Source: Lacrimispora indolis DSM 755
Lineage (GTDB): Bacteria > Bacillota > Clostridia > Lachnospirales > Lachnospiraceae
Reading direction: 5' to 3'
Assembly (NCBI RefSeq): GCF_000526995.1
Contig: NZ_AZUI01000001.1
Span: forward strand, 5,746,001 to 5,810,000
Length of the DNA stretch: 64,000 nucleotides
Shown here: positions 4,608 through 32,891 of the stretch, one piece after another
How the letters are laid out: each line of letters begins with the position of its first letter
How positions within the stretch are numbered: position 1 is the stretch's first letter
Notes under the pieces: model-generated
Told to the model about the DNA's origin: nothing
Database searches by the model: none
Seen by the model: the letters and a program-made list of their open reading frames with translations, nothing else
Position numbers and translations under genes: made by a program

Positions 4608-4632
4608 ATCACATCGTTTAAATCTTACAAAT

Positions 4633-4673: not shown

Positions 4674-4700
4674 ATGCCATTATCCTTCTTTTCCCATCAT

Positions 4701-7454: not shown

Positions 7455-7455
7455 G

Positions 7456-8328
7456 TTATTCCCCCTTATCCGAATAAAATACCCAGCGGTCCTGGGTAGC
7501 AAATAATACTACCGTAACAGATACAATAATGAGAAACAGTACCCAGCTTGCGGCGCTTGCATAACCCATATTAAAAAGCTGGAAGGCATTGTCATAAATG
7601 AACATAGAGGTAAGGTAAGTGGAATTTAAAGGGCCTTTCTTTGTGATCAGGTAAGGTCCGTTGAATTCCTGGAAAGCATTGACCAGCTGCATGACCAAAT
7701 TGAAGAAAATCGTCGGTGTGATCAAAGGGATCGTGATCTTGAAAAACGAATAAGGCTTCGTCGCTCCGTCCACGCTTGCAGCTTCATAAAGATCCTGAGG
7801 CACGTCCTTAAGGGCTGCCAGGAATATCAGCATGGCAGAACCGAACTGCCATACTTTTAAAAGCACGATAACAGCCATGGCTCCAGGTCCGGAAGATAGC
7901 CATTTTACAGGTCCCACGCCGAATATGCCGAGAAAATGGTTAATAAACCCATCCTGCTGGAATAAAAAACGCCATAATACGGCAACCGCCACATTTCCTC
8001 CCAAAAGGGAAGGTACATAATATGCCGTCCGGTAGAAATTGATAGCCTTTAGTTTAAAATTCAGGATAAATGCAATAAAAAGTGCAAATGCAAGCTGCAA
8101 AGGCACTGTGATTACCGTATATTTAAGCGTCTGTCTCAATGTGCCTAAAAAGTCTTTATCTTTCAATAGCTTCGCATAGTTGGCAAATCCTATGAAATTT
8201 GGTTCCCTGACCAGGTTGTAATCCGTAAAGCTGATAAAAAGCGCGTTAATAAACGGATACAATGTAAGAAAAACCATTCCGATTATCCAGGGGAGAATAT
8301 ACAAAAGCCCGATCTTGCTGTTTTTCAA
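7456..8328 (-). CDS. Sugar ABC transporter permease (MalF/UgpA type)
   Basis: The 290-residue membrane protein has about six helices and the EAA loop YEAASVDGATKPYSFFKITIPLI that docks on the ATPase. It imports an oligosaccharide, together with the adjoining binding protein and the frameshifted second permease. No ATPase is encoded in the operon, as is usual for carbohydrate class 1 importers that share an MsmX-type ATPase. The start codon is TTG, 7 bases after AGGAGG. Its stop is one base from the next start. Confidence 0.93.
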   Translation of the reverse strand: MKNSKIGLLYILPWIIGMVFLTLYPFINALFISFTDYNLVREPNFIGFANYAKLLKDKDFLGTLRQTLKYTVITVPLQLAFALFIAFILNFKLKAINFYRTAYYVPSLLGGNVAVAVLWRFLFQQDGFINHFLGIFGVGPVKWLSSGPGAMAVIVLLKVWQFGSAMLIFLAALKDVPQDLYEAASVDGATKPYSFFKITIPLITPTIFFNLVMQLVNAFQEFNGPYLITKKGPLNSTYLTSMFIYDNAFQLFNMGYASAASWVLFLIIVSVTVVLFATQDRWVFYSDKGE

Positions 8329-8454
8329 AGAAATTCCTCCTAGTTAAGAATGATATAGCCTCTAAGAGCTATATGGTTAATAAGTTTCCAAATCAGATAA
8401 CAGAAGAAATAGTTCTTCTTACATCAGATAAAGCACCTTATAACTTTCCGGTTT

Positions 8455-8489
8455 GTCATTGCGGGCTGCACAGGCAGACCCGCAATGAC
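8455..8489 (-). promoter_or_regulatory. Stem-loop between binding-protein and permease genes
   Basis: GTCATTGCGGG pairs perfectly with CCCGCAATGAC around a 13-base loop, in the 207-base gap after the binding-protein gene. There is no T-run in the transcribed direction, so it is more likely a 3' mRNA stabiliser or a partial terminator than a full stop. Confidence 0.7.
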
Positions 8490-8535
8490 CAATGAGACAG
8501 GGACTGATTTCCCAACCGGCAGTTATTATTTCTGT

Positions 8536-9921: not shown

Positions 9922-10033
9922 AATACCTTTTCCTTCCTTTTCTTTTTCTTATTATATTTGCAGGGTTTGTGACCCCCCGTGCCGCCTGATTTTATTATGT
10001 GCGGTCATTTATGCCATTCACAACTGACATTTT

Positions 10034-11989
10034 TTAATCATAGATCTTTCTGCCATGAGCATCGGAAATTCCCGACTTGCGGTAAAAGTATGTATTGATT
10101 TGATCCCGCCAATTGATTGCATTTTCTTTTTGTTTCTTAATACGGTCCCTCACATTGGTGTAGCTTTCTTCATCCAGGAAAGGCTCCAGGCTCTCCCAGG
10201 TCCTCTCGTACTGCTCAACCTTCTCCGCTCCTGCAAAATGTGTGTCATATATATGCTGAATGACAGTCTTTCCTGAACGCAGGACGTGGGTATAGGGTAC
10301 ATGATGGAAAAACAGCAAAAGCTCATCAGGACAGGTGGATAAGTCTTCATATTCTCTGAATCTGGCATCTGAATACTGTCTCGTATATCCGGTGCCCCTT
10401 GCAACCGAACGTTCTCTGCCTACTCCGTTGCGGTCCGCATAATGATAGGTGCCCCATCTGTCGTATTCGTATCCGTCTATGTCTGCCCCGTAGTGAACAT
10501 TGGGCCTGCACATAAATCCCACTGCCAGGGGACATGTATAATCTTCATAAACGCCTCTGGAAGTAGTAAGAATATCCACAATTTTCGACGCCTGGTCTTC
10601 GGGAAGTTCAAAGGTCAGATTCACCCATTCCCTGGCTATCTCCTCTGAACTGAGGGAGTTGTCCCATACAAGCCTGCCATATCCGTATAGATTTGCCTGA
10701 GCCAGTTTGTTGCCTGTCCAGTTTGCGTCCATGCCTACACTTCCCACCGCCGCTATTCCTGATCGTTTGGGATCCGGTGAGTTCTTTTTGATCTCATTCT
10801 TTATGAAAGCATCCTTTCCATAACAGGTATCAAAATCCAAAGTCTCTTTCCACATGGGAACCAGATAGCAAATATCCACCTGATGCCCTGTATACTCCTG
10901 GGTAATCTGAAATTCCAGTATCTGATTTGTCTTTCTAAGTGCCCCGAAAAGCGGAGAATTAGGTTCTCTGATCTGAAAATCAATGGGACCATTTTTGATC
11001 TGAAGGATGACATTGCCTTCAAATTTGCCGTCGTGAGCCATAAATATATCATAAGCAGCCCTGGCACGGTCAAGAGATCTGTCTCTCCAGTCCTGTCCGC
11101 AGTTATATACAAAGCATCTCCAGATAATGATGCCTCCAAAAGGTTTGATCGTCCGCGCCAGCATATTTGCACCATCTTCATGTGTCCTGTCATATGTAAA
11201 CGGGCCCGGCTCTCCCTCGGAGTCCGCTTTCACGATGAAACCGCCGAACTGCGGGATCTCTTTGTATATATCAGCAGTCACTTGCTCCCACCATGCGGCC
11301 ACTTCCGGCAAAAGGGGATCCGCCGTGTCAAGCCCGCCTACCACTATGGGAGCGGCAAAGTTGATAGAGAGATATGTCCTGATTCCGTATTCGCTGAATA
11401 CATCGGCTATCTTTCTGATTTCTTTTAAATTCTCACTCTTTATAAAGAACGTCTCTTTTTTATGCACATTTACATTGTTGACCGATACGGCATTGATACC
11501 TGTACTCGCAAGCAGTCTGGCATAGGAGCGGACGATCTCCATATCTCCTCTAAAGTGGTTTCTATCATAGTAGATCGACTCTCCCGCGTAACCGCGTTCA
11601 ATGGAGCCGTCGAAATTATCCCAATGGTTTATCATGCGGATGCTCTGGTCCGGTTGGCTCTTAAAGGGGAGCCGTCCTTTGGTGATCAGAATACGGTGCA
11701 GACCGAATACTCCATAGAGAAGACCTTTCTCAGATGAGGCTGTTACTGCATAGCCTGCCTCTGTCTTTTCTATCTCATATCCGTCGCCTGTTCCGTCACC
11801 TGTCAGTGATAATACCAACGGGGATTTTGCATCATCCGACGGCTCTGCGTCTTCAAACAGAAGGGACAGCTCTCTCTCTATGGTTTTCATTACAACACTG
11901 TCTCTTCTATTTTTAATATAATAACTGGATATATCCGGCTGATGTACTCTCTTTTTCAGCCAGCACAGATCCCTTGTTTTTGACATCAC
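10034..11989 (-). CDS. aguA: Alpha-glucuronidase, glycoside hydrolase family 67
   Basis: This enzyme removes (4-O-methyl-)glucuronic acid from the non-reducing end of xylo-oligosaccharides. The ~650-residue sequence shows GH67 landmarks: RMINHWDNFDGSIERGYAG, the catalytic-acid region GGFIVKADSEGEPGPFTYDRTHEDGAN, and the FEGNVILQIKNGPIDFQIREP block. It has no signal peptide and so acts on imported substrate. GTG (11989) directly followed by ATG (11986) are both possible starts, 7 and 10 bases after AGGAGG. The end of the preceding oxidoreductase overlaps here, showing translational coupling. Confidence 0.96.
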   Translation of the reverse strand: MMSKTRDLCWLKKRVHQPDISSYYIKNRRDSVVMKTIERELSLLFEDAEPSDDAKSPLVLSLTGDGTGDGYEIEKTEAGYAVTASSEKGLLYGVFGLHRILITKGRLPFKSQPDQSIRMINHWDNFDGSIERGYAGESIYYDRNHFRGDMEIVRSYARLLASTGINAVSVNNVNVHKKETFFIKSENLKEIRKIADVFSEYGIRTYLSINFAAPIVVGGLDTADPLLPEVAAWWEQVTADIYKEIPQFGGFIVKADSEGEPGPFTYDRTHEDGANMLARTIKPFGGIIIWRCFVYNCGQDWRDRSLDRARAAYDIFMAHDGKFEGNVILQIKNGPIDFQIREPNSPLFGALRKTNQILEFQITQEYTGHQVDICYLVPMWKETLDFDTCYGKDAFIKNEIKKNSPDPKRSGIAAVGSVGMDANWTGNKLAQANLYGYGRLVWDNSLSSEEIAREWVNLTFELPEDQASKIVDILTTSRGVYEDYTCPLAVGFMCRPNVHYGADIDGYEYDRWGTYHYADRNGVGRERSVARGTGYTRQYSDARFREYEDLSTCPDELLLFFHHVPYTHVLRSGKTVIQHIYDTHFAGAEKVEQYERTWESLEPFLDEESYTNVRDRIKKQKENAINWRDQINTYFYRKSGISDAHGRKIYD

Positions 11990-13119
11990 TTAAGTTCCTC
12001 CTGATTTCCTCTGACGGCGTTTTGATTCGCCCCATGGAAATTTTTTCCGTTTTCATTTATACCGTCTTTATCATACAACAGGCTGTCCTTTCCCAAAGGC
12101 AGGCGGACTGTTGATCTCGTAAATCCGGATTGATAGATAGCCGTAATAACTTCAAGAGCCAGGCGGCCATCGGCACTGTCCTCCGGATGTATTTCTCCCT
12201 TTTCAATAAAGCTGATCACACGTTCAATCTGCGCCTCATGATTTTCTTTCGTTGGTTCCGGGAACGATTCCCGCACCTTCTCTATCTCTGCCACAGTATC
12301 CGGGTCGTCTACCGGAAATCCTGTATCTGTAGAGCTGCTGCTCCTGACCTCATAAGGAGAGGAGATGCCCGCCTTTTCACACTGGAAAGCAAGCCTTTGA
12401 TACTGGCCATGGGTCACCAGATTCACCGCAAGGGTCACGACTGCCCCGCTTTTATAGGTAAGTATTGCCGCTGACAAATCTTCTGTCTCGGCGTTATCAT
12501 GTGCAATATTTGCCAGAACAGCCGTTACAGTCTCAGGGGGACCCATAATCCAGTTGAGCAGATCGATCTGGTGTACACCATGATTGATGGTACAGCCTCC
12601 GCCTTCCTTCTCCCAGGTGCCTCTCCACCAAAGATCATAATAGCTGTGGCCCCGGTACCAGAATGACTCCACCTGGCCAAAGAGCACTCTGCCAACGGGT
12701 TTGCTGTCTATAAGTGCCTTAAGAATCTGATTTTCTTTCGTAAAACGGTTCTGGCAGACGACTCCTAAATAAGTGTCGGTCTCCTTTTGGACTGCTATCA
12801 TTTCGTCACATTCCTCCAGAGATAAAGCCATGGGTTTTTCCACCAGCACATGCTTTCCTGCCCTCATACATGCTATGGAAGCAGGCAAATGGGTGAAAGG
12901 CGGGGTACACACACTTACAAGATCAATATCCTGTCTTTTAAGCATCTCGTTATAATCCCCATAAACTTCCGCTGCCTCCAGGCCATACTTCTCTTTCAGC
13001 CGCTGTGCTTTCTCGGGAAAGATATCACACAGCGCAACTACCCGGCATCTGTCCGAAAGTGTAAGGTATGCCCTAAGATGTGCCTCTGCAATAACGCCCG
13101 TTCCGATGATACCTACCAT
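11986..13119 (-). CDS. Gfo/Idh/MocA family oxidoreductase
   Basis: The 377-residue protein has the Rossmann start VGIIGTGVIAEAHLRAY and the family EKP motif (VLVEKPMAL) near residue 95, followed by the C-terminal sheet domain with GGGCTINHGVHQIDLLNW. Such enzymes oxidise sugars or inositols with NAD(P). As first gene of the GH67 operon it may act on glucuronate or on a modified xylose; the exact substrate is unknown. It is closely similar in motifs to the gene at 56650-57828 (YDLWWRGTW in both). AAAGGA precedes the ATG. Confidence 0.92.
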   Translation of the reverse strand: MVGIIGTGVIAEAHLRAYLTLSDRCRVVALCDIFPEKAQRLKEKYGLEAAEVYGDYNEMLKRQDIDLVSVCTPPFTHLPASIACMRAGKHVLVEKPMALSLEECDEMIAVQKETDTYLGVVCQNRFTKENQILKALIDSKPVGRVLFGQVESFWYRGHSYYDLWWRGTWEKEGGGCTINHGVHQIDLLNWIMGPPETVTAVLANIAHDNAETEDLSAAILTYKSGAVVTLAVNLVTHGQYQRLAFQCEKAGISSPYEVRSSSSTDTGFPVDDPDTVAEIEKVRESFPEPTKENHEAQIERVISFIEKGEIHPEDSADGRLALEVITAIYQSGFTRSTVRLPLGKDSLLYDKDGINENGKNFHGANQNAVRGNQEELK

Positions 13120-13170
13120 AATACTTCCTTTCTCTAAACAGTTCTCCTGGGTGTGTCAGCATTTTGATTA

Positions 13171-13184
13171 AATAAACGTTTATT
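13171..13184. promoter_or_regulatory. Candidate operator, 14-bp perfect palindrome
   Basis: AATAAACGTTTATT lies in the 274-base divergent region between the GH67 operon and the AraC gene, about 52 bases upstream of the operon's first start codon. It may be bound by a LacI/GntR-type factor or by a global carbon regulator. The rest of the region is AT-rich without other clear sites. Confidence 0.4.
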
Positions 13185-13393
13185 ATGCTTTATATTTTAG
13201 CCAAATCCTCCAATATTGTGAATGTATTATTAAAATACTATTTGTAATTTTTAAATATATTTTTTACTTTGCATTCTCTATTGCACAACTTTACTGAACA
13301 AGATATACTAAATATACAATAAAAAACGTATATCAGAGACAGTCACCGTATTTTTCTAAAAAAATGACAAAAAAATAATGGGAGGCGCAGCTT

Positions 13394-14209
13394 ATGGAAG
13401 TAAATTTTGATAACATGATTCCCGAACTGCACTACTACATCCACAGAAAATGTACTGCCAGTTGGAAGATAGACCCGGATTACATACCTTTCATTGACAT
13501 CACATATGTCATTGCGGGAAAAGCCAGATACTTTATAGACGGTACAGAATATATCGTCCGGAAAGGCGATTTAATCTGCATCCCCAGAGGCACTCACAGA
13601 GCGGCGGTCAGCGTCCCTGAGGATCTGATGGAATGTTACTCCACAAACCTTTTCCTCAGAGATCAGAAAGGCGATGATATCTCCCTGCCCCTTGAATTAA
13701 TCAGCCATATTGGCAGCGTTCCCCAGCTCATTTCATGCTTCCATGAGATCCACGAAGAGTGGCTGAAGCGTGAGTTCGGTTACAAACTAAAGGTGAGGGC
13801 CAGTATGTGCCTGATCCTCTACCATATACTGGATCTCCTTTTCAATGAGAACCGGATCAGCAGTAAAGATATCCGTATCATCAACAGCATCCGCTACATG
13901 AGCACTCATTTTGCAGAAGATGTAAGCATTGATACCATGGCTGATCTGTTCCATATCCATCCGGTATACTATGGAAATCTGTTTAAAAAGGCCATAGGCA
14001 TGACATTCAAACAGTATCTCATATCACTGCGCCTGAATCATGCGGAAAATATGCTGAGGAGCGGCGAGGGCAACGTGGGAGATGCAGCTCTCCAAAGCGG
14101 ATTCTCCGATATATACTATTTTTCAAAATTATTTAAAGAAAAAAAAGGAATCCCCCCTTCAAAGCTGCTCCCGCCGGAGAGGAAGAAAAATGTGGAGGCA
14201 TTCAAATAA
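13394..14209 (+). CDS. AraC family transcriptional regulator
   Basis: The 271-residue protein has an N-terminal cupin sensor (DITYVIAGKARYFIDGTEYIVRKGDLICIPRGTHRA) and a C-terminal double helix-turn-helix (ADLFHIHPVYYGNLFKKAIGMTFKQYLISLRLNHAENML, then GFSDIYYFSKLFKEKKG). It probably activates the divergent GH67 operon and/or the genes downstream in response to a sugar. GGGAGG precedes the ATG. The next gene begins 14 bases after its stop. Confidence 0.93.
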   Translation: MEVNFDNMIPELHYYIHRKCTASWKIDPDYIPFIDITYVIAGKARYFIDGTEYIVRKGDLICIPRGTHRAAVSVPEDLMECYSTNLFLRDQKGDDISLPLELISHIGSVPQLISCFHEIHEEWLKREFGYKLKVRASMCLILYHILDLLFNENRISSKDIRIINSIRYMSTHFAEDVSIDTMADLFHIHPVYYGNLFKKAIGMTFKQYLISLRLNHAENMLRSGEGNVGDAALQSGFSDIYYFSKLFKEKKGIPPSKLLPPERKKNVEAFK

Positions 14210-14223
14210 AGAGGAGGATCGAT

Positions 14224-15147
14224 ATGAAGAAGAAAGCGCTCATCATCGGAGGAAGCGGAGGACTGAGCGGCCGTCTGGCTGCCCTGGCAAAAGAAGAATA
14301 TGAAGTTTGGGCAGTTACCAGAGGGCAGCGCCCCTTAGGTGACAAGATCCATCTTCTGAAAGCCGACAGAAACGATGCTGAAAATTTCCGGAAAACGATT
14401 TTAGATGCGGATACGGTCTGGGACATTGTTTTTGACTGCATATGTATGAATGAAAGACATGCCATGCAGGATTTAAATGTATTTCCCGGAGTAACCAAGC
14501 GCCTGGTAGTGATTTCCACGGATTCTGTATATGATCCCCGCAGGAAAGGCACTCCGCAGAAAGAAGACGGATATTTCGTCGAGGAAGAAGGGGAGCCTGA
14601 AGCACTCACCTATGCAGGCAATAAACGCCGTATGGAACATGTCTTTATGAACAACTTCAAAAGCACCTCCATGGCAATCACACTATTTCGCCCCGGTCAT
14701 ATCTACGGACCCGGTTTTCTTATGGGATGCTACCCGGAGCACAGCAGGCAGAAGGAACTTCCCCAGCTCATCCTGGACCGGGAGCCAATATCTCTTGTAG
14801 GCGGCGGGATCTATCTCACCCAGCCCGTATTTGTGGACGATTTAGCAAATTCCATGCTGGACTGCGCAGACAAACCAGGCGCTTATAACCGCATTTTCTG
14901 TATTGGAGGACCGAAGGCGGTGGAAAACCGAAGATACTATGAGATCATCGGGCAGCTGCTTGACAGAGATGTGAACATAAAAGAGATTCCGCTGACAGGT
15001 TACCTTGAAAAACACCCGGAGTACAGCGGCCACTTATGTCACCGGATCTATGATCTGTCTGCGTTGATGGAGGCCGGTGTCCGCCTGCCGGATACCCCCC
15101 TTGAAACAGGGTTAAAAATACACTTAAAATCACTGGGGTATCTTTAA
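14224..15147 (+). CDS. NAD-dependent epimerase/dehydratase family protein (extended SDR)
   Basis: The 307-residue protein opens with an NAD-binding GGSGGLSGRLAAL and has the Tyr/Lys pair of SDR enzymes in LTYAGNKRRMEHVF near residue 140, with RPGHIYGPGF following. It likely acts on a sugar or sugar acid, with the AraC regulator upstream and the aldo/keto reductase 39 bases downstream forming one operon. AGGAGG lies 7 bases upstream. Substrate unknown. Confidence 0.88.
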   Translation: MKKKALIIGGSGGLSGRLAALAKEEYEVWAVTRGQRPLGDKIHLLKADRNDAENFRKTILDADTVWDIVFDCICMNERHAMQDLNVFPGVTKRLVVISTDSVYDPRRKGTPQKEDGYFVEEEGEPEALTYAGNKRRMEHVFMNNFKSTSMAITLFRPGHIYGPGFLMGCYPEHSRQKELPQLILDREPISLVGGGIYLTQPVFVDDLANSMLDCADKPGAYNRIFCIGGPKAVENRRYYEIIGQLLDRDVNIKEIPLTGYLEKHPEYSGHLCHRIYDLSALMEAGVRLPDTPLETGLKIHLKSLGYL

Positions 15148-15186
15148 AAACGTTTTAAACCCACAAATAAATCCTGGAGGTATAAC

Positions 15187-16278
15187 ATGTATTACAAACA
15201 ATATGGGAACACCGATATGAAGGTCTCCGCCATCGGCATGGGTTGTATGAGATATGACGCAGACGATGTAAAATCAGGCAATTTCGAAAAATGCGCTGAA
15301 GTTGCGCTGTACGCCCATGAAAAAGGCATCAACTATTTTGATACTGCTCCTTATTACTGCGATGATAAAAGCGAGATCATCACAGGCATGGCCCTTTCCC
15401 AGCTTCCCAGAGACAGTTACTATATTTCCTCAAAAACCAATCTGGGCACAGTAGGCGGCAGTTATACAGAATCAGACTTTCGCAGAAGGCTGGAAACGAC
15501 ACTAAGCCGGCTGAAGGTGGATTATCTGGACTTTTATCACCTGTGGTGCATATTAAATCTGGATTCCTTTTCCAAACAGGTGGATATTCTTTACTCATTC
15601 TTTGAGAAAGCAAAATCAGAAGGACTGATCCGCAATATCGTATTTTCATCCCATATGCAGGGCAATGAGCTGGAGAACGCAGTCGCTTCCAATCTATTTA
15701 AAGGAATGCTCATTGGTTACAATGCCCTCAACTACCGCTTCCGCCAGACAGGCATCAAAGCCGCCTATGACAGTGGTATGGGTGTTGTAGTCATGAACCC
15801 ATTGGGAGGCGGCCTGATACCTGGAAACCCGAATACATTCCGCTATCTGACTGAAGGAACAGACCTAACCGTAGCACAGGCTGCCTTAAATTTCGTGGCC
15901 TCCCACAAAGAGATCACAATCACCCTGGCGGGCTGCACCACGAAAGCTCATGTAGATGATGCCGTGAAAGCCGTAGAAAACTTATCAGAACGTCCCGCAG
16001 CTGAAATCTATGAGGAATATGAGAATAAAGGCATGATCAGCAACGATCTCTGCACAGGCTGTGCATACTGCAAGCACTGTCCCAAAGATATTGATATCCC
16101 CAAATTCATGGATGCCTACAACATGAAGCTGCTGGGAAATGATATGTTTGAACGGCTGAAAGGTCACTGGCAGATATCAAAAGACTCCGCCGGAACCTGC
16201 ATCAAATGCGGTAAATGCGAGAAGCTTTGCACACAGCATCTGCCCATCATAGAAAGACTGGCTGAGATAGCAGGTTAA
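15187..16278 (+). CDS. Aldo/keto reductase with C-terminal 4Fe-4S ferredoxin domain
   Basis: Residues 1-270 form the AKR barrel, with the catalytic Asp/Tyr in FDTAPYYCDDKSE, Lys in ISSKTN and His in DFYHLWC. Residues ~290-345 hold two ferredoxin-like Cys clusters, CTGCAYCKHCP and CIKCGKCEKLC. The fused form is common in anaerobes, where electrons can pass through the clusters instead of or besides NAD(P)H. It follows the SDR gene and probably works on the same sugar derivative. GGAGG precedes the ATG. Confidence 0.93.
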   Translation: MYYKQYGNTDMKVSAIGMGCMRYDADDVKSGNFEKCAEVALYAHEKGINYFDTAPYYCDDKSEIITGMALSQLPRDSYYISSKTNLGTVGGSYTESDFRRRLETTLSRLKVDYLDFYHLWCILNLDSFSKQVDILYSFFEKAKSEGLIRNIVFSSHMQGNELENAVASNLFKGMLIGYNALNYRFRQTGIKAAYDSGMGVVVMNPLGGGLIPGNPNTFRYLTEGTDLTVAQAALNFVASHKEITITLAGCTTKAHVDDAVKAVENLSERPAAEIYEEYENKGMISNDLCTGCAYCKHCPKDIDIPKFMDAYNMKLLGNDMFERLKGHWQISKDSAGTCIKCGKCEKLCTQHLPIIERLAEIAG

Positions 16279-18804: not shown

Positions 18805-20883
18805 ATGTATCCTGAAGAATTTGACGAAATGAATGCATGCAATTGCGGTTATTACGCCAATGCAAATAAATGTTCATGTGATAAATGCTCCGGTCAACAA
18901 AATGTAGCGTGTAAATCCTGCCAATGCAATTGCTGTCGTTGTGTAGGGCCTACCGGACCCACTGGACCTACTGGCGCGACCGGCGCTCAAGGACCTACTG
19001 GCCCTACCGGTGCTACTGGCGCTACTGGCGCCCAAGGACCTACCGGGCCTACCGGTGCTACTGGCGCTACCGGCGCCCAAGGACCTACTGGCCCTACCGG
19101 TGCTACTGGCGCTACCGGCGCCCAAGGACCTACTGGCCCTACCGGTGCTACTGGCGCTACCGGCGCCCAAGGACCTACCGGGCCTACCGGTGCTACTGGC
19201 GCGACCGGCGCCCAAGGACCTACCGGGCCTACCGGTGCTACTGGCGCTACCGGCGCCCAAGGACCTACCGGGCCTACCGGTGCTACTGGCGCGACCGGCG
19301 CCCAAGGACCTACAGGACCTACTGGTGCTACTGGTGCCCCAGGGCCTACAGGACCTACCGGACCTGCTGGCGCTACCGGAGCCCAAGGACCTACCGGACC
19401 TACCGGACCTGCTGGCGCGACCGGCGCCCAAGGGCCTACCGGACCTACCGGACCTGCTGGCGCGACCGGCGCCCAAGGGCCTACAGGACCTACCGGACCT
19501 GCTGGCGCTACCGGCGCTCAAGGGCCTACAGGACCTACCGGGCCTGCTGGTGCTACCGGCGCCCAAGGACCTACCGGACCTACCGGGCCTGCTGGTGCTA
19601 CTGGTGCTCAAGGGCCTACAGGACCTACCGGTTCTCAAGGACCCACTGGGCCTGCTGGTGCTCAGGGACCTACAGGGCCCACCGGACCGCAGGGAGTTGA
19701 AGGACCTATTGGACCCACCGGACCTACAGGTGCCGCCGGTGCTACTGGCGCTCAAGGACCTACCGGCCCCACCGGGCCTCAGGGACCGCAAGGAATTGAA
19801 GGACCTGTTGGACCCACTGGACCTACCGGTGCCGCCGGTGCTACTGGTGCGCAAGGACCTACCGGGCCCACCGGGCCTCAGGGACCTCAGGGACCGCAAG
19901 GAATTGAAGGTTCTGTCGGACCTACCGGACCGACCGGTGCCGCCGGTGCTACTGGTGCGCAGGGACCTATTGGGCCTACCGGACCTCAGGGACCTCAAGG
20001 ACCGCAAGGAATTGAAGGTTCTGTCGGACCTACCGGACCCACCGGGCCTGCCGGTGCTACTGGTGCTCAGGGGCCTATTGGGCCTACCGGGCCTCAGGGA
20101 CCTCAGGGACCGCAGGGAATTGAAGGTTCTGTTGGACCCACCGGACCCACCGGACCTGCCGGTGCTACTGGTGCCCAGGGACCTATTGGACCCACCGGAC
20201 CTCAGGGACCTCAGGGGCCGCAGGGAATTGAAGGTTCTGTTGGACCCACCGGACCTCAGGGACCTCAGGGGCCGCAGGGAATTGAGGGTTCTGTTGGACC
20301 CACCGGACCTCAGGGACCTCAGGGGCCGCAAGGAATTGAAGGTTCTGTTGGGCCCACCGGACCTCAGGGGCCGCAGGGACCACAAGGGATTGAAGGTTCT
20401 GTCGGACCTACTGGACCCACCGGTGCTGCCGGGCCTACTGGACCGACCGGCCCAACTGGAGAAGTTGTTTTGGCTTACGGATCTTTAAGAGGTGGTAGTG
20501 TAGAGACACCTGGGGCAATATTTACACCTGTACCATTTAGTATAGTTGGACCTTTATCGAATACTATCACAGTTAGCCTATCGGGCAACGAATTAGTGGT
20601 AGGAGAAAGCGGAATTTATCAAATAACGATATCTATTAACGCTGAAGCCACCGTTGATCCGGATCCAGATCAACCATATCTGAATGCTATAATTACTGTC
20701 AACGGTGTACCGATTTTTGGCGATACTACTACTTTCTTTAAGATAGCAAATAGAAGTAGTTCAACATTTGTGGTTCAAGCCGCCTTATCAGCAGGAGATG
20801 AAGTAGGCGTAAGTATTATTACAGATTTTCCAGTTTTAGGTTATATGAATCGCTCTTTAACGATTGTTCAATTAAGTAATTAG
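18805..20883 (+). CDS. Collagen-like surface/exosporium protein (BclA-like)
   Basis: The 692-residue protein has three parts. Residues 1-47 contain 11 cysteines and no signal peptide. Residues 48 to ~554 are about 169 unbroken Gly-X-Y triplets, mostly GPT, GAT, GAQ and GPQ. Residues ~555-692 form a beta-rich C-terminal domain ([10 protein letters not shown]..., ending [12 protein letters not shown]) like the BclA C1q/TNF-type trimer head. Such proteins form hair-like filaments on spores of Bacillus and Clostridium; many X-Y threonines could be glycosylated. AGGAGG precedes the ATG. Spore location is inference from family and lack of a signal peptide. Confidence 0.9.
18946..20466 (+). repeat. 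Collagen-coding tandem repeats
   Basis: The first part is built from 45-base units encoding [15 protein letters not shown]; the middle uses [15 protein letters not shown]; the later part uses longer units with [18 protein letters not shown]. Neighbouring units are nearly identical in DNA, the form expected of copy-number changes by slippage or unequal exchange. Assembly of the exact copy number from short reads would be unreliable. Confidence 0.9.
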
Positions 20884-26320: not shown

Positions 26321-27091
26321 TCACAGTGAGACGCAGACCGTCTTTTTGCAGGAATCCAGATACAGGATCCTGTTCTCAATACCGTACAATTCTTTTACAG
26401 CCTGTTCCGTAATAATATCCTTCCCCTTCCCCACGCAGTGCTTTTTATTTTTGTAAAGCAGCAGCACATTGGCATCCGCCAAAAACCCGTGATCCGGAAA
26501 ATGGGTTGTCATGATCACTGTCCTGTCAAGCTTTTCAACAAGACCGCAGATGTGGGAAATGATCCTGGCCTGGTTGCCGAAATCCAGATTAGAAACAGGT
26601 TCATCCAAAACCAATATGGGCGTTTGCTGGGCAATGGCCCGCGCGATCAGGGTAAGCTGCCTCTCTCCTCCGCTGATCCGGGTATAATCCTTGTTGCAAA
26701 GATATTCGATCCCCAGCAGTTCCATGGCTTCTTCCACTGCCCTCCGGTCTTCTCCGTTAAGCTTGCCCAAGCCCTGCTGATGAGGATTCCTTCCCATGGC
26801 AATGACCTCCTTAACCGTAAAAGCAAAGGGCGGGACATGGTTTTGTGGAACATAGGCGATCTGCTTTGCCAGCTCCTTCCGGTTCCAGCTTTCGAGAGGA
26901 ATGTCATTTAATGAGATGCTGCCGTTTATGGGCCCCAGCAATCGAAGGACTGTCTTAAAAAACGTGGTTTTCCCCACGCCGTTTGAGCCCAGAACACACC
27001 ACATTTCCTTTGCCTTGATGGTCATATTGATATGTTCAATCACCTCATGGCCATGATAGCCGCAGCTGAGATCTTTCATTTCCATTTTCAT
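26321..27091 (-). CDS. FepC/MolC-type ABC transporter ATPase
   Basis: The ATPase has Walker A GSNGVGKTT, Q-loop YVPQNH, signature ISGGERQ, Walker B ILVLDEP and the switch His in MTTHFPDH, in ~257 residues, the normal size for class II importers (FecE/BtuD/MolC). It powers the FecCD permease encoded just upstream. ATG 27091 is used; TTG 27103 and GTG 27100 overlapping the permease stop are alternatives. The last 20 residues are unusual for the family in holding two Cys. It ends the six-gene operon; no terminator is obvious after it. Confidence 0.93.
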   Translation of the reverse strand: MKMEMKDLSCGYHGHEVIEHINMTIKAKEMWCVLGSNGVGKTTFFKTVLRLLGPINGSISLNDIPLESWNRKELAKQIAYVPQNHVPPFAFTVKEVIAMGRNPHQQGLGKLNGEDRRAVEEAMELLGIEYLCNKDYTRISGGERQLTLIARAIAQQTPILVLDEPVSNLDFGNQARIISHICGLVEKLDRTVIMTTHFPDHGFLADANVLLLYKNKKHCVGKGKDIITEQAVKELYGIENRILYLDSCKKTVCVSL

Positions 27092-27096
27092 TTGCT

Positions 27097-28107
27097 TCAC
27101 CAACCGCTTTCTCTTCTGCTCATCAGAAATATGAGGAAAGGGATTCCAACCAGGGACGTTGTGATTCCAAGGGGAATTTCAATGGTCATTAAGCTGCGGC
27201 ACAAGTCATCCATCAGCAAAAGGTAAACCGCCCCTAAAAGCAGGGAGCCTGGAATCACATATTTGAAATTGGGCCCCATCATCATTCTTGCAAGATGAGG
27301 AACGATCAGCCCGATCCAGCCGATTGTCCCGGTCACTGATATGGAATACGCCGTTAAAACGGTAGCTGAAACAGTGATGATCACTTGAAGCAGCCGTGTA
27401 TTCACTCCCAAAGACTTTGCCTCCTCCTCACCCAGGGCAAGAATATTGATCTTATTGCTGCAGAACACCAAAACCGCAATGCATATGGAAAAGGGCGCCA
27501 TCATGCCCAGGGCATCCTGGTAAGTGGCTTTATTTAAGCTCCCCATCAGCCAAAAGGTGATTTCCGGCAGCTTGTTTTCCGTATCCGCAGTGTATTTCAT
27601 CAAGGTGATCAACGACTGAAACAGGCCGCTGACTAAAATTCCCCCAAGGACCAATAAAAACACCATGTTATTGCCTTTTCCGATCCGCGCGGCAATAAAC
27701 CAGGCCATCATAACAGCCAGAAGGCCAAATGCAAATGCCATCATCTTGGTGCCAACAATGCCAACCGACAAAACAATGCCCAGCACAGCACCAAAAGAAG
27801 CGCCCGAAGACGCTCCCAGTAAGTCAGGTGACACAAGGGGATTCTTAAACATCCCCTGATACGCCGCGCCGCTGACCGCCAGTGCTCCCCCTACCTGGAT
27901 GGCAGCAAATATCCGCGGCAGCCGGACCTGATAAATGATATGGGAGATCTGCTCATTGTCCGAATAACCTGACAGCACCTTCATAACGTCTGCCAGCGAT
28001 ATAGGGAAGCGTCCTGCCAGCAAAGACACTAATATGGAAACCAGCAGAAGAACTGCAAGCAGCCAAAGCACCTGCGCCGGCGGTATTTTATTTTTTGTTT
28101 GATCCAC
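27097..28107 (-). CDS. FecCD/MolB-type ABC transporter permease
   Basis: The 336-residue protein matches FecCD permeases: VRLPRIFAAIQVGGALAVSGAAYQGMFKNPLVSPDLLGASSGASFGAVLGI, then GTIGWIGLIVPHLARMMMGPN and the ending EIPLGITTSLVGIPFLIFLMSRR. About ten membrane helices are expected and two copies form the channel. Family substrates include siderophores, cobalamin, haem, and in Haemophilus MolBC molybdate/tungstate. The ModE-type control region of this operon favours the last. GTG start with AGGATG upstream. Confidence 0.93.
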   Translation of the reverse strand: MDQTKNKIPPAQVLWLLAVLLLVSILVSLLAGRFPISLADVMKVLSGYSDNEQISHIIYQVRLPRIFAAIQVGGALAVSGAAYQGMFKNPLVSPDLLGASSGASFGAVLGIVLSVGIVGTKMMAFAFGLLAVMMAWFIAARIGKGNNMVFLLVLGGILVSGLFQSLITLMKYTADTENKLPEITFWLMGSLNKATYQDALGMMAPFSICIAVLVFCSNKINILALGEEEAKSLGVNTRLLQVIITVSATVLTAYSISVTGTIGWIGLIVPHLARMMMGPNFKYVIPGSLLLGAVYLLLMDDLCRSLMTIEIPLGITTSLVGIPFLIFLMSRRESGW

Positions 28108-28113
28108 TTCCGA

Positions 28114-28806
28114 TCATCCTATCTTCATTTTTTTAATATTTCCTTTTTGAAAGTTTTCACCTATACGGGTCTCTCCCAGGCAATAGGAACAAAGGGCCGC
28201 AGGCATGGTAAACCGGAGGCGGCAATCCTGCATATCCGCCGAAAGAAGGTTTTTTCCCCTGCGGAAATATTCCGCGGCATCAAAAGAGCCTTGTCCTGTA
28301 ATTCCGTTAAGGAATAATATGTCAGCTTTAGGATTTGCCATCTTTACCTTGAAGGCAAAGACCTCTCTTTCCGCCTGGGATACAATATCCCCTTTTGTAA
28401 TAATAATCAGGTCTGCATAACGCAGCATGGGCCCGATTTTATGAGGGGTATTAATGCCTGATAAATTATCAATGACACATACCGCCAAAAATTCACGCAA
28501 ATGAGGAGAACAGCGGTTGCACAGCCCGGCGCTTTCGATCACAAGGTATTCAAAATCATTTTTAAAGCCCCAGGCCGCACACTCTTCAATGTTGCTGACA
28601 AAAAAATGGTCTGGACATAAATTACCCGAAAGCCCCACAACAGAAGAGATCTGGTGCTCCCCGAACCGGTCTGAATCCGAGCTGGATAAGCAGTCAAACT
28701 TTGCCACTCCCACCTTTTCTTTTCCCAGCTGTTGGATGATCCGGATCAGAACTGAGGTTTTTCCCGCAGAAGGCGGCCCGGAAACCGTAATCAATTTCAT
28801 GGGCAT
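28114..28806 (-). CDS. G3E-like (HypB/UreG/CobW-type) metal-handling GTPase
   Basis: The ~230-residue protein starts MPMKLITVSGPPSAGKTS, a P-loop of the SIMIBI G3E class. It has VIESAGLCNRCSPH, which combines the G3-like ESAG with a CxxC pair, the base-recognition ITKGD, and a second CxxC in ALCSYCLGE near the C-terminus. Relatives insert nickel, cobalt or molybdenum cofactors using GTP. Two CxxC motifs suggest a bound metal or cluster. Start 28806 overlaps the preceding gene; 28800 (ATGA overlap) is also possible. Cytoplasmic; its client is unknown. Confidence 0.8.
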   Translation of the reverse strand: MPMKLITVSGPPSAGKTSVLIRIIQQLGKEKVGVAKFDCLSSSDSDRFGEHQISSVVGLSGNLCPDHFFVSNIEECAAWGFKNDFEYLVIESAGLCNRCSPHLREFLAVCVIDNLSGINTPHKIGPMLRYADLIIITKGDIVSQAEREVFAFKVKMANPKADILFLNGITGQGSFDAAEYFRRGKNLLSADMQDCRLRFTMPAALCSYCLGETRIGENFQKGNIKKMKIG

Positions 28807-30026
28807 AATACACCCCCGGGATGAAGCCTGTGCCACTCCTGAAAAAAGACATCCAGGCAGTGTTCCGCCAAAGCAGGAATATCATGTTCACGGATAAAAT
28901 CCCAGCCCAGCCACTGAAAAGCGGCACCAGGCGGCAGCTTTGCATCCACCTCTCCGTTCATAGGCGGCGTATAGGCCTTCACACAAGCCTGGGCGAAGTC
29001 CTTTCCGGTGATATAATCCGTAATATCCTTTACATTCTCAGCCTCATCCTTTCTCACAAGCATATACATGGGCAAGGTAATTGCTCCGTCATCAGGCCAT
29101 ATAATCTCCACCTCATCCCGCACGCAGGTCTGGGCGAAAAACCAGGAAACCAGATAAATGGCTCCTCCTTCCTGCCTGCTGCTTCCCGCTGTCTTTGACA
29201 TCACACTTCCATGGAGGGCGTGTTTCACGTTCCCGGCAAATTTCCGGATCCCTTCCTCGCCATACAGCTTATATAAGTATAAAAACATGGCATTGGATAT
29301 GGTTTCCCGGTCTTTTCCAAAGATAATGATGTTGTTCTCATAAACCGGGTCAAGTAAGTCTTCCAGAGTCCTGGGAACCGGAAGGCTGCCCAGCCGTTTT
29401 TTATCGATCATAAACATTTCGGCCATTACGCCGTAAACCGTATAAATATCCTCCGGGTCCCACAGGCCTGCCGCCTTTAATGCAGGATTCATGTTTTGGA
29501 TGTAGCCTCCTGCAAATATACCGGCCATTTTCTTTTGAAAATCCAAGCCAAGGTATTCATTAAATTCTTTTGAAAACAGCAGTCCGGGAAAACGCTTTGG
29601 ATCAGGGTCTGCCCAGGATTCTTCGCAGGTATCGTTTGTCATTTTCCCAAATTCCAAGTAGCACTTTCTTGAAATCCCATAGTGCTCTTTGTGTTTCCGC
29701 TCCAGATCTTCCAATGCATCACGGAAGGTGAATTTTAGGGGGCATATGGTATTTCCATAAAAATCCAGCTTCTCTCCCGGCGAAAAATCTTCCAGCAGAT
29801 ACTGGCGCTCTGCTTCTGCCTTTAAAACGGCATGATCCAGATGGTATAAAAAAAGTTCCTGATTGACCCCTCTTACATATAACAAGGTCTTTAACATGGT
29901 ATCCGGCCCAACCTCTTCTAAAAAATCCTCCGGTTCTTCATATTCAAAGCCATTTGACCGGAACACTTCAAAACTTTCCGGATACTGTTTTAAGATTTCC
30001 TTTAGCTTCATTGTTCCTGTTATCAC
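28797..30026 (-). CDS. Cytoplasmic binding-protein-like protein with DUF1858-like N-domain
   Basis: The 409-residue protein has no signal peptide. Residues ~6-65 (MKLKEILKQYPESFEVFRSNGFEYEEPEDF...) resemble the DUF1858 small helical domain. The rest looks like a type 2 solute-binding fold of the iron/phosphonate kind (PGLLFSKEFNEYLG, NNIIIFGKDRETISNAMFLYLYKLYG, EVEIIWPDDGAITLPMYMLVRKDE). A solute-binding protein kept in the cytoplasm between an ABC ATPase and a GTPase is odd; it may hold an oxyanion or metal complex for delivery. GTG start 6 bases after AGGAGG. Function not established. Confidence 0.65.
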   Translation of the reverse strand: MITGTMKLKEILKQYPESFEVFRSNGFEYEEPEDFLEEVGPDTMLKTLLYVRGVNQELFLYHLDHAVLKAEAERQYLLEDFSPGEKLDFYGNTICPLKFTFRDALEDLERKHKEHYGISRKCYLEFGKMTNDTCEESWADPDPKRFPGLLFSKEFNEYLGLDFQKKMAGIFAGGYIQNMNPALKAAGLWDPEDIYTVYGVMAEMFMIDKKRLGSLPVPRTLEDLLDPVYENNIIIFGKDRETISNAMFLYLYKLYGEEGIRKFAGNVKHALHGSVMSKTAGSSRQEGGAIYLVSWFFAQTCVRDEVEIIWPDDGAITLPMYMLVRKDEAENVKDITDYITGKDFAQACVKAYTPPMNGEVDAKLPPGAAFQWLGWDFIREHDIPALAEHCLDVFFQEWHRLHPGGVLCP

Positions 30027-30040
30027 AAAAAACCTCCTGA

Positions 30041-31069
30041 CTAAAGCATTGAAACCGACATCTCCACCCGCTCTCCCCTGCGGAGCATCTGTAACAGCTT
30101 TGTTGTTCTTCTGTCCATATCTTCCAGTTCCTTTAAATTCTTCTTTTCCATTTCACTTGTTTCCAGAACGGCTTTCATGCCGCCATTTTCAATAATAATG
30201 CGCTTATCTCCCATTAGAGCAAGGATCGGGTCGTGGGTGGACATGAGCACGATTTTTCGCTCCTGGGCGAGCAGGAGCAGCGCCTTTTTCCGGTCCACTC
30301 CCGCATTTTCGATTTCATCGATCAGCACAATGGGGGAAGTGCTTAAAAAGGCAGTGTCTGCGATCATCAGTGCGCGGGACTGGCCTCCGCTTAACTCTGT
30401 TAAAGGTGTTTCCTTAGAAAACCGTTCTCCTGCCAGGTCATTGGCTGCATCAAAGATTTTCCCGGTCACGCTGTCAAGGGACTCGATCATCCGGCTCTCC
30501 CCGTGAAGGCGCAAAAAATCCATGACAGGAAGATCCATGACAAAGTTCATGTTCTGGGAAAGCTGAGCAATGAGCTTGTTTTCGATTTGAAAGCGCTCCC
30601 TTTCACTGGGGATTCGGTCATCTATCAGGATCCTCCGTTTTGTCTGTGTATCGCCCTGGGCAAGGCACTCAATATCTGCCAGTAAGCAGCTTTTTCCTGA
30701 TCCCGTAGGACCCATAACCGTAATAATTTCACCCTTTTCAATGGTAAAGGACAGGTTTTCACTTTCTCCGAATTTGTTCTGTCCTCCTATAATGGTGATC
30801 TTTTCCACGGATTTCTTTTTCTGCTTTAAAGATTCCATCCGGTTTAAAAACAGGATAAAATGATCTGCCAACTGAGAGGGGGACGCGCCGATATCCTCCA
30901 GCAAATGTTCGGGAACCGAGTCAATATACTGCTGGACGCTGGAATGAGACTGTTCAGAAAAACCATCTATGCCGGAGGCTGCAAAAAAGTCGCCGGCATA
31001 GGGATAGGTTTCTAAAACCATAGCAATGTTATTTGTTAATAATTCCTTTGTTATCATGATTTGATTCAC
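30041..31069 (-). CDS. Soluble ABC ATPase with N-terminal DUF1858-like domain
   Basis: The 342-residue protein has an ABC core: Walker A GPTGSGKSCLLADIE, signature LSGGQSRALMIAD, Walker B PIVLIDEIENAG and STHDPILALMGDK. Ahead of it, residues ~8-75 (NIAMVLETYPYAGDFFAASGIDGFSEQ...) resemble the N-domain of the next gene's product. No membrane helices and no dedicated membrane partner are seen, since FepC-type ATPase and permease are present separately. It may be a cytoplasmic motor for loading metal or oxyanion. GTG start overlaps the upstream stop as GTGA. Confidence 0.75.
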   Translation of the reverse strand: MNQIMITKELLTNNIAMVLETYPYAGDFFAASGIDGFSEQSHSSVQQYIDSVPEHLLEDIGASPSQLADHFILFLNRMESLKQKKKSVEKITIIGGQNKFGESENLSFTIEKGEIITVMGPTGSGKSCLLADIECLAQGDTQTKRRILIDDRIPSERERFQIENKLIAQLSQNMNFVMDLPVMDFLRLHGESRMIESLDSVTGKIFDAANDLAGERFSKETPLTELSGGQSRALMIADTAFLSTSPIVLIDEIENAGVDRKKALLLLAQERKIVLMSTHDPILALMGDKRIIIENGGMKAVLETSEMEKKNLKELEDMDRRTTKLLQMLRRGERVEMSVSML

Positions 31070-32265
31070 TTCCGAAGAGCGTTCTTTGTGATATTTTCCA
31101 CATCCTGGCCGCTCAGTTCCACGTGATAAAAAAGCTTGTAAAATTCTTTTGTTTCTTCCTTAATATCAAAGTCCACATACTCCGGGTACAAAATGGAATG
31201 AACCCACTTGATTCCGATGATCGTATTGACAGAAGGCGGCCTGTCAAACCAGTTCTGAGGCTGCATCGGTGTCTCAAACACAAGACCGTTTTTAACTGCC
31301 GGAATGGTCGACCATTTTCCGTCGTTCATGATGGTGTTATAGCTGCTGGAATCCGCAAATCCATTGTCAACGCTGCAGATGATCAGCTCCGGATTCCATT
31401 TCATAACCTGCTCAATGGAAACAGCAGTGCGCCCGTATCCAGGGGTAATTTCGCAATCCGCTACATTGATTCCGCCGCACAAATCAATTAACTGGGAATG
31501 AGAGGAACCTGAAGGGTCGGTATGAAGGCCATCCTGCTCTTCTGCATAATAAACACGTATCTTTTTATCCTCAGGAATTTGAGCTGTGATTTCTTTTGCA
31601 TCATCCAATGCCTTCTGAGTATAGGAAGCCAGTTCTTCTCCCCGATCTTCCCTGTTAAAAAGCTTGCCTAAAAAGCGGTAGGTTTCCGGCAGATCCGTCA
31701 AATCACTTTTCACCAATATCACCGGTATGCCCAGCTGCTTCTGCAGCTGTTCTGCCTGGTCAATGCTTCCCTGATCCGTTCCGCTGGAAAGAACCACATC
31801 AGGAGCTGCTTTAATAATTTCTTCGATGTTTCCCTGGTTTCCTTTGCCGTACCAGCCTCCTAAATTAGGAAGGGATGCATAGTATTCCGTCAAATAAGCC
31901 TTTTCCCCGTCAGATATGTTCACATTTACACCTGCCACCATTTTGTCATCAAAGGTATACATGAGCATGGTGCCTATAGGGCTGGTGGAATATACGCGGC
32001 TGATGGCCCCAGGCAGTTCCAGCTTACGTCCTGAGTGGTCCGTGACCTCCTGGACTGCTGAATCGTTTTGTGCCGCAAGGGATGATTCCTTCTCTGCTTT
32101 TGCCGTCTCGCCGGCCCCGGCAGAACTGCCCTCCGTTACTGTCTGTGTCTCCTGTGCTGATGAACCGGCATTGGTTCCAGCTCCTTTGCAGGCGCTCAAT
32201 GCAAGTGTGATGCATAAGAGCAATCCGGACAAATAGATGCGTTTCTTCTTTGGTATTCTCCGCAT
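31066..32265 (-). CDS. FecB/MolA-type substrate-binding lipoprotein
   Basis: The 399-residue protein has a lipoprotein signal ending in LSAC (Cys at ~26), a long Ser/Ala/Glu/Thr linker, then a class II binding fold beginning VTDHSGRKLELPGAISRVYSTSPIGTMLMYTFDD. The segment SGSSHSQLIDLCGGINVADCEITPGYGRTAVSIEQVMKWNPELIIC is typical of vitamin B12/iron/molybdate binders. It is the first gene of the operon and feeds the FecCD permease. The ligand is inferred to be molybdate or tungstate from the ModE-like control region; iron complexes are the main alternative. AAAGGA precedes the ATG. Confidence 0.9.
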   Translation of the reverse strand: MRRIPKKKRIYLSGLLLCITLALSACKGAGTNAGSSAQETQTVTEGSSAGAGETAKAEKESSLAAQNDSAVQEVTDHSGRKLELPGAISRVYSTSPIGTMLMYTFDDKMVAGVNVNISDGEKAYLTEYYASLPNLGGWYGKGNQGNIEEIIKAAPDVVLSSGTDQGSIDQAEQLQKQLGIPVILVKSDLTDLPETYRFLGKLFNREDRGEELASYTQKALDDAKEITAQIPEDKKIRVYYAEEQDGLHTDPSGSSHSQLIDLCGGINVADCEITPGYGRTAVSIEQVMKWNPELIICSVDNGFADSSSYNTIMNDGKWSTIPAVKNGLVFETPMQPQNWFDRPPSVNTIIGIKWVHSILYPEYVDFDIKEETKEFYKLFYHVELSGQDVENITKNALRK

Positions 32266-32395
32266 GATAAATAATTCCTTTCTTTTTTTTCTCCTGATTT
32301 TTTATAAATCACAAATTTTTTTATGATAAAGTTTTAACAAATATTGATTATTTTGCTCAAACCAATTAAAAACCAGGAGGAATTTCTCTTTTTTT

Positions 32396-32419
32396 CGATA
32401 TAAATATATTAATATATCG
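32396..32419. promoter_or_regulatory. ModE-type operator palindrome
   Basis: CGATATA and TATATCG form perfect inverted arms around 10 A/T bases, in the divergent region between the metal operon and the ModE-like gene. The known ModE boxes of proteobacteria share the form CGnTATA...TATAnCG. It lies 131 bases upstream of the lipoprotein start and 62 bases before the -10-side promoter of the regulator. Confidence 0.7.
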
Positions 32420-32481
32420 GATTTAAAAAATCAAGCTAACAAAAATTTTGATTTGTAGATTTTTTCTGCTTCACATTCCCC

Positions 32482-32510
32482 TTGCCACAAATTAAAAATC
32501 TTTGTATAGT
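32482..32510 (+). promoter_or_regulatory. Promoter of the ModE-like gene
   Basis: TTGCCA and TATAGT are separated by 17 bases; the predicted start of transcription is about 40 bases before the AGGAGG. Confidence 0.6.
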
Positions 32511-32561
32511 AATCTAAGGCGATAAGCAAGCATATTCGTTTTATTCATTAGGAGGCAAATG

Positions 32562-32891
32562 ATGCGCGTAGTTACAAGAATAAGGATCGGCAAAGAAAGA
32601 ATTTTTATCGGCAAAGGCGTAAAAGAAATGCTGGATGCCATTGAACTGAATAAGTCCATAAAAAAAGCAACGGAATACACGGGGATTTCCTATCCAAAGG
32701 CCATCCGGATGATCCGGACCCTGGAAGAAGAATTGGGATTTCCTGTTGTTATTTCTGAAAAGGGCGGAAACGAGCGGGGAGGAACCCGTTTAACTGAGAA
32801 AGGCAAAGAAGTTCTTGAGACTTACAGGAAGATCGAGAAGGACGTAGAAGAATATGCGGAAAAACTGATTGAGAAGGAATTTCGTTTTTAA
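32562..32891 (+). CDS. ModE N-terminal-type winged-helix regulator
   Basis: The 109-residue protein is a single LysR/ModE-like winged helix: LDAIELNKSIKKATEYTGISYPKAIRMIRTLEEELGFPVVISEKGGNERGGTRLTEKGKEVLETY. The GG-x-GTRLT wing is characteristic of ModE N-domains. It lacks the molybdate-binding TOBE/MOP domains, so it must sense through a partner or respond differently. The second ATG (32562) lies 6 bases after AGGAGG and is preferred over 32559. Divergent placement suggests it controls the adjacent metal operon and itself. Confidence 0.88.
   Translation: MRVVTRIRIGKERIFIGKGVKEMLDAIELNKSIKKATEYTGISYPKAIRMIRTLEEELGFPVVISEKGGNERGGTRLTEKGKEVLETYRKIEKDVEEYAEKLIEKEFRF

Follow-up and report, generated by a model that had tools for sequence, protein, structure and literature searches.

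A probable molybdenum or tungsten importer operon with a cytoplasmic ABC ATPase, binding protein and GTPase module in Lacrimispora indolis DSM 755

The locus described here is a six-gene operon with a divergently transcribed regulator gene, which lies in a stretch of 64,000 nucleotides (the window) on contig NZ_AZUI01000001.1 of Lacrimispora indolis DSM 755, whose genome comprises 6,383,701 bases. The operon is transcribed from the minus strand in the order lipoprotein, soluble ATP-binding cassette (ABC) ATPase (ABC2), DUF1858-containing solute-binding protein (DUF1858-SBP), G3E GTPase, FecCD permease and FepC-type ATPase. The following features were determined:

31066..32265, minus strand: class II (FecB/MolA-like) lipoprotein solute-binding protein (Peripla_BP_2 83 bits; lipobox LSAC)
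30041..31069, minus strand: soluble ABC ATPase (ABC2) with DUF1858-like N-terminal domain (ABC_tran 59 bits)
28797..30026, minus strand: cytoplasmic DUF1858 + SBP_bac_6 protein (SBP_bac_6 207 bits, DUF1858 30 bits)
28114..28836, minus strand: G3E GTPase, HypB/UreG-like (cobW 48 bits; motifs CPDH, C-x2-C and CSYC)
27097..28107, minus strand: FecCD permease (PF01032 289 bits)
26321..27103, minus strand: importer ATPase, FepC-type (ABC_tran 100 bits)
32559..32891, plus strand: stand-alone ModE N-type winged-helix regulator (HTH_1 30 bits; TIGR00637 2.6e-16)
32396..32419, no strand: ModE-type palindrome CGATATA-N10-TATATCG, between the divergent genes, 131 and 139 bp from their start codons

A preliminary description of the locus had claimed a six-gene operon, a divergent regulator and an intervening palindrome, and this layout was borne out by the reading frames, Pfam matches and spacing. 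All seven reading frames were found at the positions first given, with families matching Pfam as first read, and the operon genes follow each other with a 4-nt overlap, a 14-nt gap, an overlap, a 6-nt gap and a 7-nt overlap. For the GTPase, the true start is probably the ATG at 28798-28800 rather than 28836, because seven aligned homologues begin at, or at most two residues from, that codon; the L048 row of this comparison was trimmed by hand at the same codon. Rfam at gathering score gave zero matches between window positions 25000 and 34000, and promoter-like (15 vs 11.6, standard deviation 2.6) and terminator-like sites (7 vs 8.1, standard deviation 2.8) were near chance.

The FecCD permease, the FepC ATPase and a class II binding protein occur together in one operon. 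The nearest solved chains of the lipoprotein were 4pag (9e-60), 4ovk (1e-31) and 4hn9 (2e-20), followed by MolA HI1472 (3psa, 1.5e-17). The best NCBIfam matches of the FepC-type ATPase were corrinoid, haem and Fe-citrate importers, every one of them below cut-off.

The regulator matched ModE_repress (TIGR00637) with 59.5 bits compared to a cut-off of 98.5 (NCBIfam, E 2.6e-16) and the solved relative 2ijl with 5e-8. Judged from its sequence, it is a lone DNA-binding domain. The palindrome is the sole match in the window to CGNTATA-N10-TATANCG at up to one mismatch (0.06 expected), and no second exact match was found genome-wide. Since nine matches per strand with up to one mismatch (the exact one counted) were obtained genome-wide compared to 11 in a reversed control, the inexact genomic sites are regarded as background. 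The palindrome agrees in spacing with the Escherichia coli ModE consensus ATCGNTATATA-N6-TATATANCGAT, as given in an excerpt of a published study. According to the same study, other bacteria too possess ModE DNA-binding domains that stand alone, like the regulator here, and whose molybdenum sensing is described as unknown (PMC545781).

A second FecBCD operon of the host (L176, G000:C1:4899001-4915000, positions 7486-13127) comprises XdhC-like, nucleoside triphosphatase, FecCD (44% to the window protein), FepC, DUF364-type and lipoprotein (36%) genes and sits behind a one-mismatch ModE-type site and an apparent decayed MocA/ModE remnant (names by eye). This site, at 4906486, was kept as a lead only, since one-mismatch matches in this genome are noise.

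Among the three cytoplasmic proteins, the DUF1858-SBP showed no signal peptide by eye and a DUF1858 score of 30 bits, slightly below the Pfam cut-off of 32.2. Its fold is nearest to the ferric-binding group. Matches to solved chains were weak with a profile, and a single-sequence search of solved chains up to E 0.1 found none. The conserved residues include C95, H272, M276 and D313. ABC2 shows the ABC motifs Walker A (at 120), LSGGQ (226), Walker B (247) and H-loop (277), and the operon contains no permease gene that would belong to it. Its N-terminal domain aligned with the DUF1858 domain of the SBP (hhalign 90.8%, E 1.2e-6), while direct Pfam matches to DUF1858 in this domain were weak (4/16 members). 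The GTPase has a G3E fold with conserved Cys/His residues near the switches as a candidate metal site, and these motif residues are invariant in an alignment of 33 rows. Its nearest folds are HypB (E 1.4e-10) and UreG (2e-9), but it stays under the curated NCBIfam cut-offs of both hypB (50.6 vs 121.2 bits) and ureG (26.7 vs 204.2 bits). The excerpted part of a published paper tabulates the G3E subfamilies UreG, HypB, MeaB and COG0523, and mentions no pairing of any of them with both an SBP and an ABC ATPase (PMC9164220).

In order to describe the distribution of this trio, several samples were used. A protein search, which reaches only relatives sharing exact words, showed close DUF1858-SBPs to be rare, with 30 clusters among the matches listed and 20 at 50% identity or more. 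In genomes of the host's order, the three genes were adjacent in 12/12 loci from 12 genomes, drawn from 30 genomes having an SBP match; in one of these (L041) ABC2 is split over two frames. A search of genome contigs with the DUF1858-SBP alone found no relatives, whereas the GTPase profile found them: at least 592 stretches matched, 543 of those listed being relatives. The best 80 of these at least 543 relatives, i.e. the best scorers to a profile starting with the window protein, were kept and span at least ten phyla. Clustering of the neighbours showed G3E in 79, ABC2 in 79 and the SBP in 65 of 92 loci, while other forms of the SBP fell into clusters of their own. In a phylum-wide set, 37 of 249 genomes carry the GTPase family, 18 of them in a close-type version (E below 1e-90, host included). 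The search for the three proteins together in other genomes, set beforehand as a check, showed that they recur in many phyla, often beside molybdenum-type importers. No description of the trio was found by title or abstract start among the open-licence PMC papers listed, and the combination of a molybdenum/tungsten-linked importer with this cytoplasmic module is without description in the literature found. The finding made earlier stands and is broadened; the preliminary description had missed that the trio is widespread and has paralogues as well as a sister clade linked to the hybrid cluster protein (HCP).

This sister clade became visible in a GTPase tree of 117 rows, from which some GTPases, unrecognised because of overlapping frames (e.g. 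L068, L079, L082), are absent. A supported clade of 44 rows holds all 19 rows with HCP within 9 kb. The host genome comprises three GTPase copies, of which the second (L039) lies inside this clade and the window copy outside. Within a 94-row group, the window GTPase has an end branch of 1.25 and belongs to no starred set, and only its exclusion from the starred HCP clade was used; the 57 window-side rows are defined as all rows outside the HCP clade, a distant group of 14 rows and the pair L131/L149. Neighbours were named from scored representatives, by clustering or by eye, the latter applying to XdhC, YqeB, NifE, NifN-B, NifV, TrmO, carbon monoxide dehydrogenase (CODH), nitrogenase-like proteins and TonB receptors. 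Within 9 kb, molybdenum genes (those read as molybdate uptake, Mop, periplasmic-binding-protein-like regulator or ModE) were found for 14/57 window-side and 2/44 HCP-clade rows, FecCD for 23/57 and 6/44, and HCP for 0/57 and 19/44; as the rows are related and the genomes partly metagenome-assembled genomes (MAGs), these counts are not independent and Fisher values are too optimistic. Eight Mod-type neighbours were tested with NCBIfam, and six exceeded molybdate-specific cut-offs (ModB in L051, ModA in L063, ModA in L082, ModB and ModC in L118, ModB in L120), L118 belonging to the HCP clade and L082 lying outside the tree. Of the other two, L108 exceeded the cut-off of a related permease model only, and L102 was narrowly under its own. 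In L063 (Anaerobacterium chartisolvens), one strand carries the order ModA-ModB-ModC-lipoprotein-FecCD-FepC-methyltransferase-DUF1858SBP-G3E-ABC2-DUF1858SBP, with ModC assigned by clustering with L118.

The sister clade raises the question of whether the system traffics iron, nickel or another transition metal for metalloclusters, e.g. HCP or nitrogenase-like enzymes, the window copy then being a siderophore-type importer plus module with an incidental ModE-type protein. This explanation would fit the 19/44 sister-clade rows with HCP nearby, the SBP fold nearest to ferric-binding proteins, the nickel chaperones HypB and UreG as nearest relatives of the GTPase, the presence of HCP in 17/18 close-type carriers compared to 181/249 genomes overall in the phylum-wide set, and the third host copy, which adjoins NifH/D/K-like genes and converges with a CODH gene (by eye). 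However, HCP is absent within 9 kb of all window-side rows, and molybdenum genes and ModE-type boxes are concentrated on this side; we consider iron or nickel trafficking by the window operon quite unlikely. HCP as a partner of the window copy was dropped for the same 0/57 count.

The third host copy lies in L131 (G000:C1:583001-603000, positions 2472-13854), which together with L149 stands apart in the tree. Here, a GTPase-ABC2 pair with an SBP-like gene is divergent from a NifH-like gene, two nitrogenase-component-like genes and a FecBCD importer, and a CODH-like gene is convergent downstream (all by eye). The CODH adjacency was dropped as evidence, since the genes converge and the arrangement was found once. 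The excerpt of a published study notes nitrogenase-like genes next to ABC transporters and suggests that metal transport is coupled to cofactor assembly, which agrees with the gene context of this copy (PMC3464626). Next to the distant group of 14 GTPase rows lies a protein in which a 4Fe-4S-type motif was seen by eye: in L151-L163 and L165, from Firmicutes, a distant ABC2-G3E pair is followed by a conserved protein of about 220 aa with this cysteine motif, and no SBP was recognised beside the pair. Furthermore, in 19 loci (e.g. L105:11704-11946, L045:7426-7710), mostly Desulfuromonadales members of the HCP clade, ABC2 is followed by a protein of about 80 aa that is weakly HypA-like (19.9 bits, below cut-off).

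The distribution of the ModE-type motif follows the same division. With up to one mismatch, 14 sites were found in 1.13 Mb of window-side loci, window included, compared to 3 in the reversed control, while HCP-clade loci showed 1 site in 0.74 Mb (control 1) and distant loci 1 in 0.35 Mb (control 1); loci without a placed GTPase were taken as window-side, and L164 and L166 were grouped with the distant loci. Upstream of kindred genes, the motif was found again in Chlorobi and Deferribacterales. Sites lie upstream of DUF1858SBP in L093 and L102 and of TonB receptors (by eye) in L110 and L123, and one in L102 lies between a TonB receptor and ModB; several of the 14 are inside or away from system genes (L097, L116, L140, one of L102). 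This distribution is the best independent evidence that molybdenum control is a property of the window-side branch, beyond a chance occurrence in the window alone.

The TonB receptors flanking the Chlorobi versions behind ModE-type boxes, together with the FecBCD type of the importers, could also point to a metal chelate, a molybdophore or siderophore, as the imported species, from which the trio would strip the metal without chaperoning it to a target. No chelator-synthesis genes were noticed in the loci read by eye, with no search aimed at them, and the trio of the HCP clade is mostly without an importer (FecCD within 9 kb of 6/44 rows). We regard mere chelate stripping as very unlikely.

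For the destination of the metal, the 33 genomes behind the window-side loci were searched for NifD, MoaC and NifQ. NifD was found in 31/33 (24 above the curated cut-off, a further 4 of full length with 626-641 bits, and 3 as fragments), the host showing 640.8 bits, and MoaC in 19/33; thus, most sampled window-side carriers have nitrogenase and many are without MoaC, which the preliminary description had likewise missed. In 16 further genomes (14 from the HCP clade, plus L079 and L082), NifD was full-length in 7, weak in 1 and absent in 8; several of the genomes searched for NifD are MAGs, for which presence or absence can be wrong. A comparison of 31/33 with 24/249 nifD carriers was not used, since it mixes sampling schemes. 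NifQ was found in 7/42 genomes searched, three of them among the 33, and neither in the host genome nor, with Pfam up to E 1, among the seven proteins of the locus. According to the excerpt of a published study, nifQ is absent from diazotrophic Clostridium, Paenibacillus, cyanobacteria and Frankia (PMC4761190). The host nif operon (L180, G000:C1:5948001-5968000, positions 4716-15599) comprises nifH, two glnB-like genes, nifD, nifK, nifE, a nifN-nifB fusion and a split nifV; the NifN-NifB-type fusion has 906 aa, and xanthine-dehydrogenase-type molybdenum hydroxylase genes directly adjoin the operon (all by eye).

Such hydroxylase genes beside nif are also what would be expected if the trio fed only molybdenum cofactor (Moco) or tungstopterin enzymes, i.e. 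molybdenum hydroxylases and formate dehydrogenase, and the nitrogenase link were a by-product of the anaerobic lifestyle. In the host, a Moco operon is accompanied by a separate lone ModE (L177), MoaC occurs in 16/18 close-type carriers of the phylum-wide set compared to 174/249 overall, and G151 has a ModE-linked pair and MoaC, but no nifD. On the other hand, among the 14/33 window-side genomes without MoaC, 13 have nifD (11 full-length, 2 as fragments) and one has none, although many of these are drafts or MAGs and some absences may be false. A supply restricted to Moco enzymes is, in our view, unlikely.

Altogether, we slightly favour the assumption that the operon serves the acquisition of molybdenum, possibly tungsten, and its intracellular delivery, often for nitrogenase. 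Gene content, conservation, the box and the genomic co-occurrence are directly established, and from these we infer substrate, hand-off, sink and sensing as follows. The lipoprotein, FecCD permease and FepC ATPase would bring in molybdate/tungstate or its chelate, and the FbpA-like DUF1858 protein would accept the metal species in the cytoplasm. Nucleotide hydrolysis by the soluble ABC ATPase and the Cys/His-rich GTPase could then drive the release of the metal and its transfer to the site where a cofactor is assembled. The sink in many carriers, perhaps including the host, may be nitrogenase FeMo-cofactor assembly, for which most of these genomes are without the molybdenum donor NifQ; Moco enzymes are another possible sink, and the lone ModE-type domain at the palindrome may tie expression to molybdenum status. 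The earlier interpretation is thereby partly upheld. A molybdenum/tungsten link is supported by the ModE-type box, the mod genes and molybdenum regulators near window-side relatives and MolA as fourth nearest solved chain. A cytoplasmic trio that accompanies such importers in other phyla is likewise supported; its capture of the oxyanion is hypothetical.

Several observations weigh against this interpretation. The three solved lipoproteins closer than MolA are of unverified ligand, and the next matches after MolA are iron-, siderophore- and B12-type binding proteins. The 110-aa regulator has no recognised TOBE/Mop molybdate-binding domain (Pfam up to E 1); of the ModE-type switch proposed earlier, the box and a putative ModE-type DNA-binding domain are retained, and molybdate sensing is hypothetical. 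The HCP clade and the further paralogue groups suggest that the trio also has other purposes and is not molybdenum-specific. The window-type DUF1858-SBP occurs in 1/392 genomes of the host's order, the host itself. While 17/24 relatives from the host genus have NifD, the best DUF1858SBP matches in these relatives reach only 26-33% identity; host-genus nitrogenase thus does not need the window operon, and a test for covariation with nif among members of the genus was negative. In the phylum-wide set, NifD of at least 639 bits was found in only 4/18 close-type carriers (26/249 overall), and conversely only 4 of these 26 genomes have a close-type copy, many diazotrophs being without the trio. Furthermore, L089, a MAG, has neither nifD nor moaC, and L104 has only weak nitrogenase-like matches.

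A nitrogenase destination is the boldest reading that the evidence allows, and it is unproven. For the molybdenum route to FeMo-cofactor in diazotrophs without NifQ, the trio in nifD carriers of six phyla (31/33 sampled window-side genomes), often beside molybdenum-type importers, provides a defined candidate amenable to gene deletion. A further-reaching proposal would be that the three cytoplasmic proteins, SBP, G3E GTPase and orphan ABC ATPase, work together as an intracellular metal-trafficking machine driven by nucleotides, of a kind new to biochemistry. In diazotrophs without NifQ, its window-side form would supply the molybdenum for FeMo-cofactor as the donor so far missing, and its sister form would serve HCP; we put this forward tentatively, as it appears doubtful at present. 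If true, an ABC ATPase and a solute-binding protein would, unusually, be employed without a membrane step.

Elsewhere in the window, at 18805-20883, a frame of 692 aa was observed whose N-terminus is Cys-rich and which contains collagen-like repeats (GPTGPTG), perhaps a protein of the spore-surface type.

A comparison with known systems shows both likenesses and differences. The molybdate/tungstate importer MolBC-A of Haemophilus influenzae shares the FecCD-type permease, FepC-type ATPase and class II binding protein, whereas the window operon has a divergent ModE-type gene and a lipoprotein closer to 4pag, 4ovk and 4hn9; we know of no cytoplasmic trio accompanying MolBC-A. Compared to ModE, the regulator has a DNA-binding domain of apparently the same type and its site the same half-site spacing (CGnTATA, 10 bp apart), but it lacks the tandem Mop/TOBE molybdate-binding domains and scores below the ModE_repress cut-off. 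The iron-binding proteins FutA1 and FbpA resemble the DUF1858-SBP in the SBP fold of the ferric-binding group, while the latter adds an N-terminal DUF1858 domain and shows no signal peptide. With the G3E metallochaperones HypB and UreG, the GTPase shares fold and P-loop, and its CPxH aligns with the GCPH stretch of UreG; in contrast, it has the extra C-x2-C and CSYC motifs, and it is accompanied by an ABC ATPase and a protein of SBP fold in place of the HypA and UreE (UreEFH) partners of those chaperones. NifQ resembles the trio in the proposed role alone, the supply of molybdenum to FeMo-cofactor, whereas no NifQ-family sequence is present in the operon and 35/42 of the searched genomes are without a NifQ-family match.

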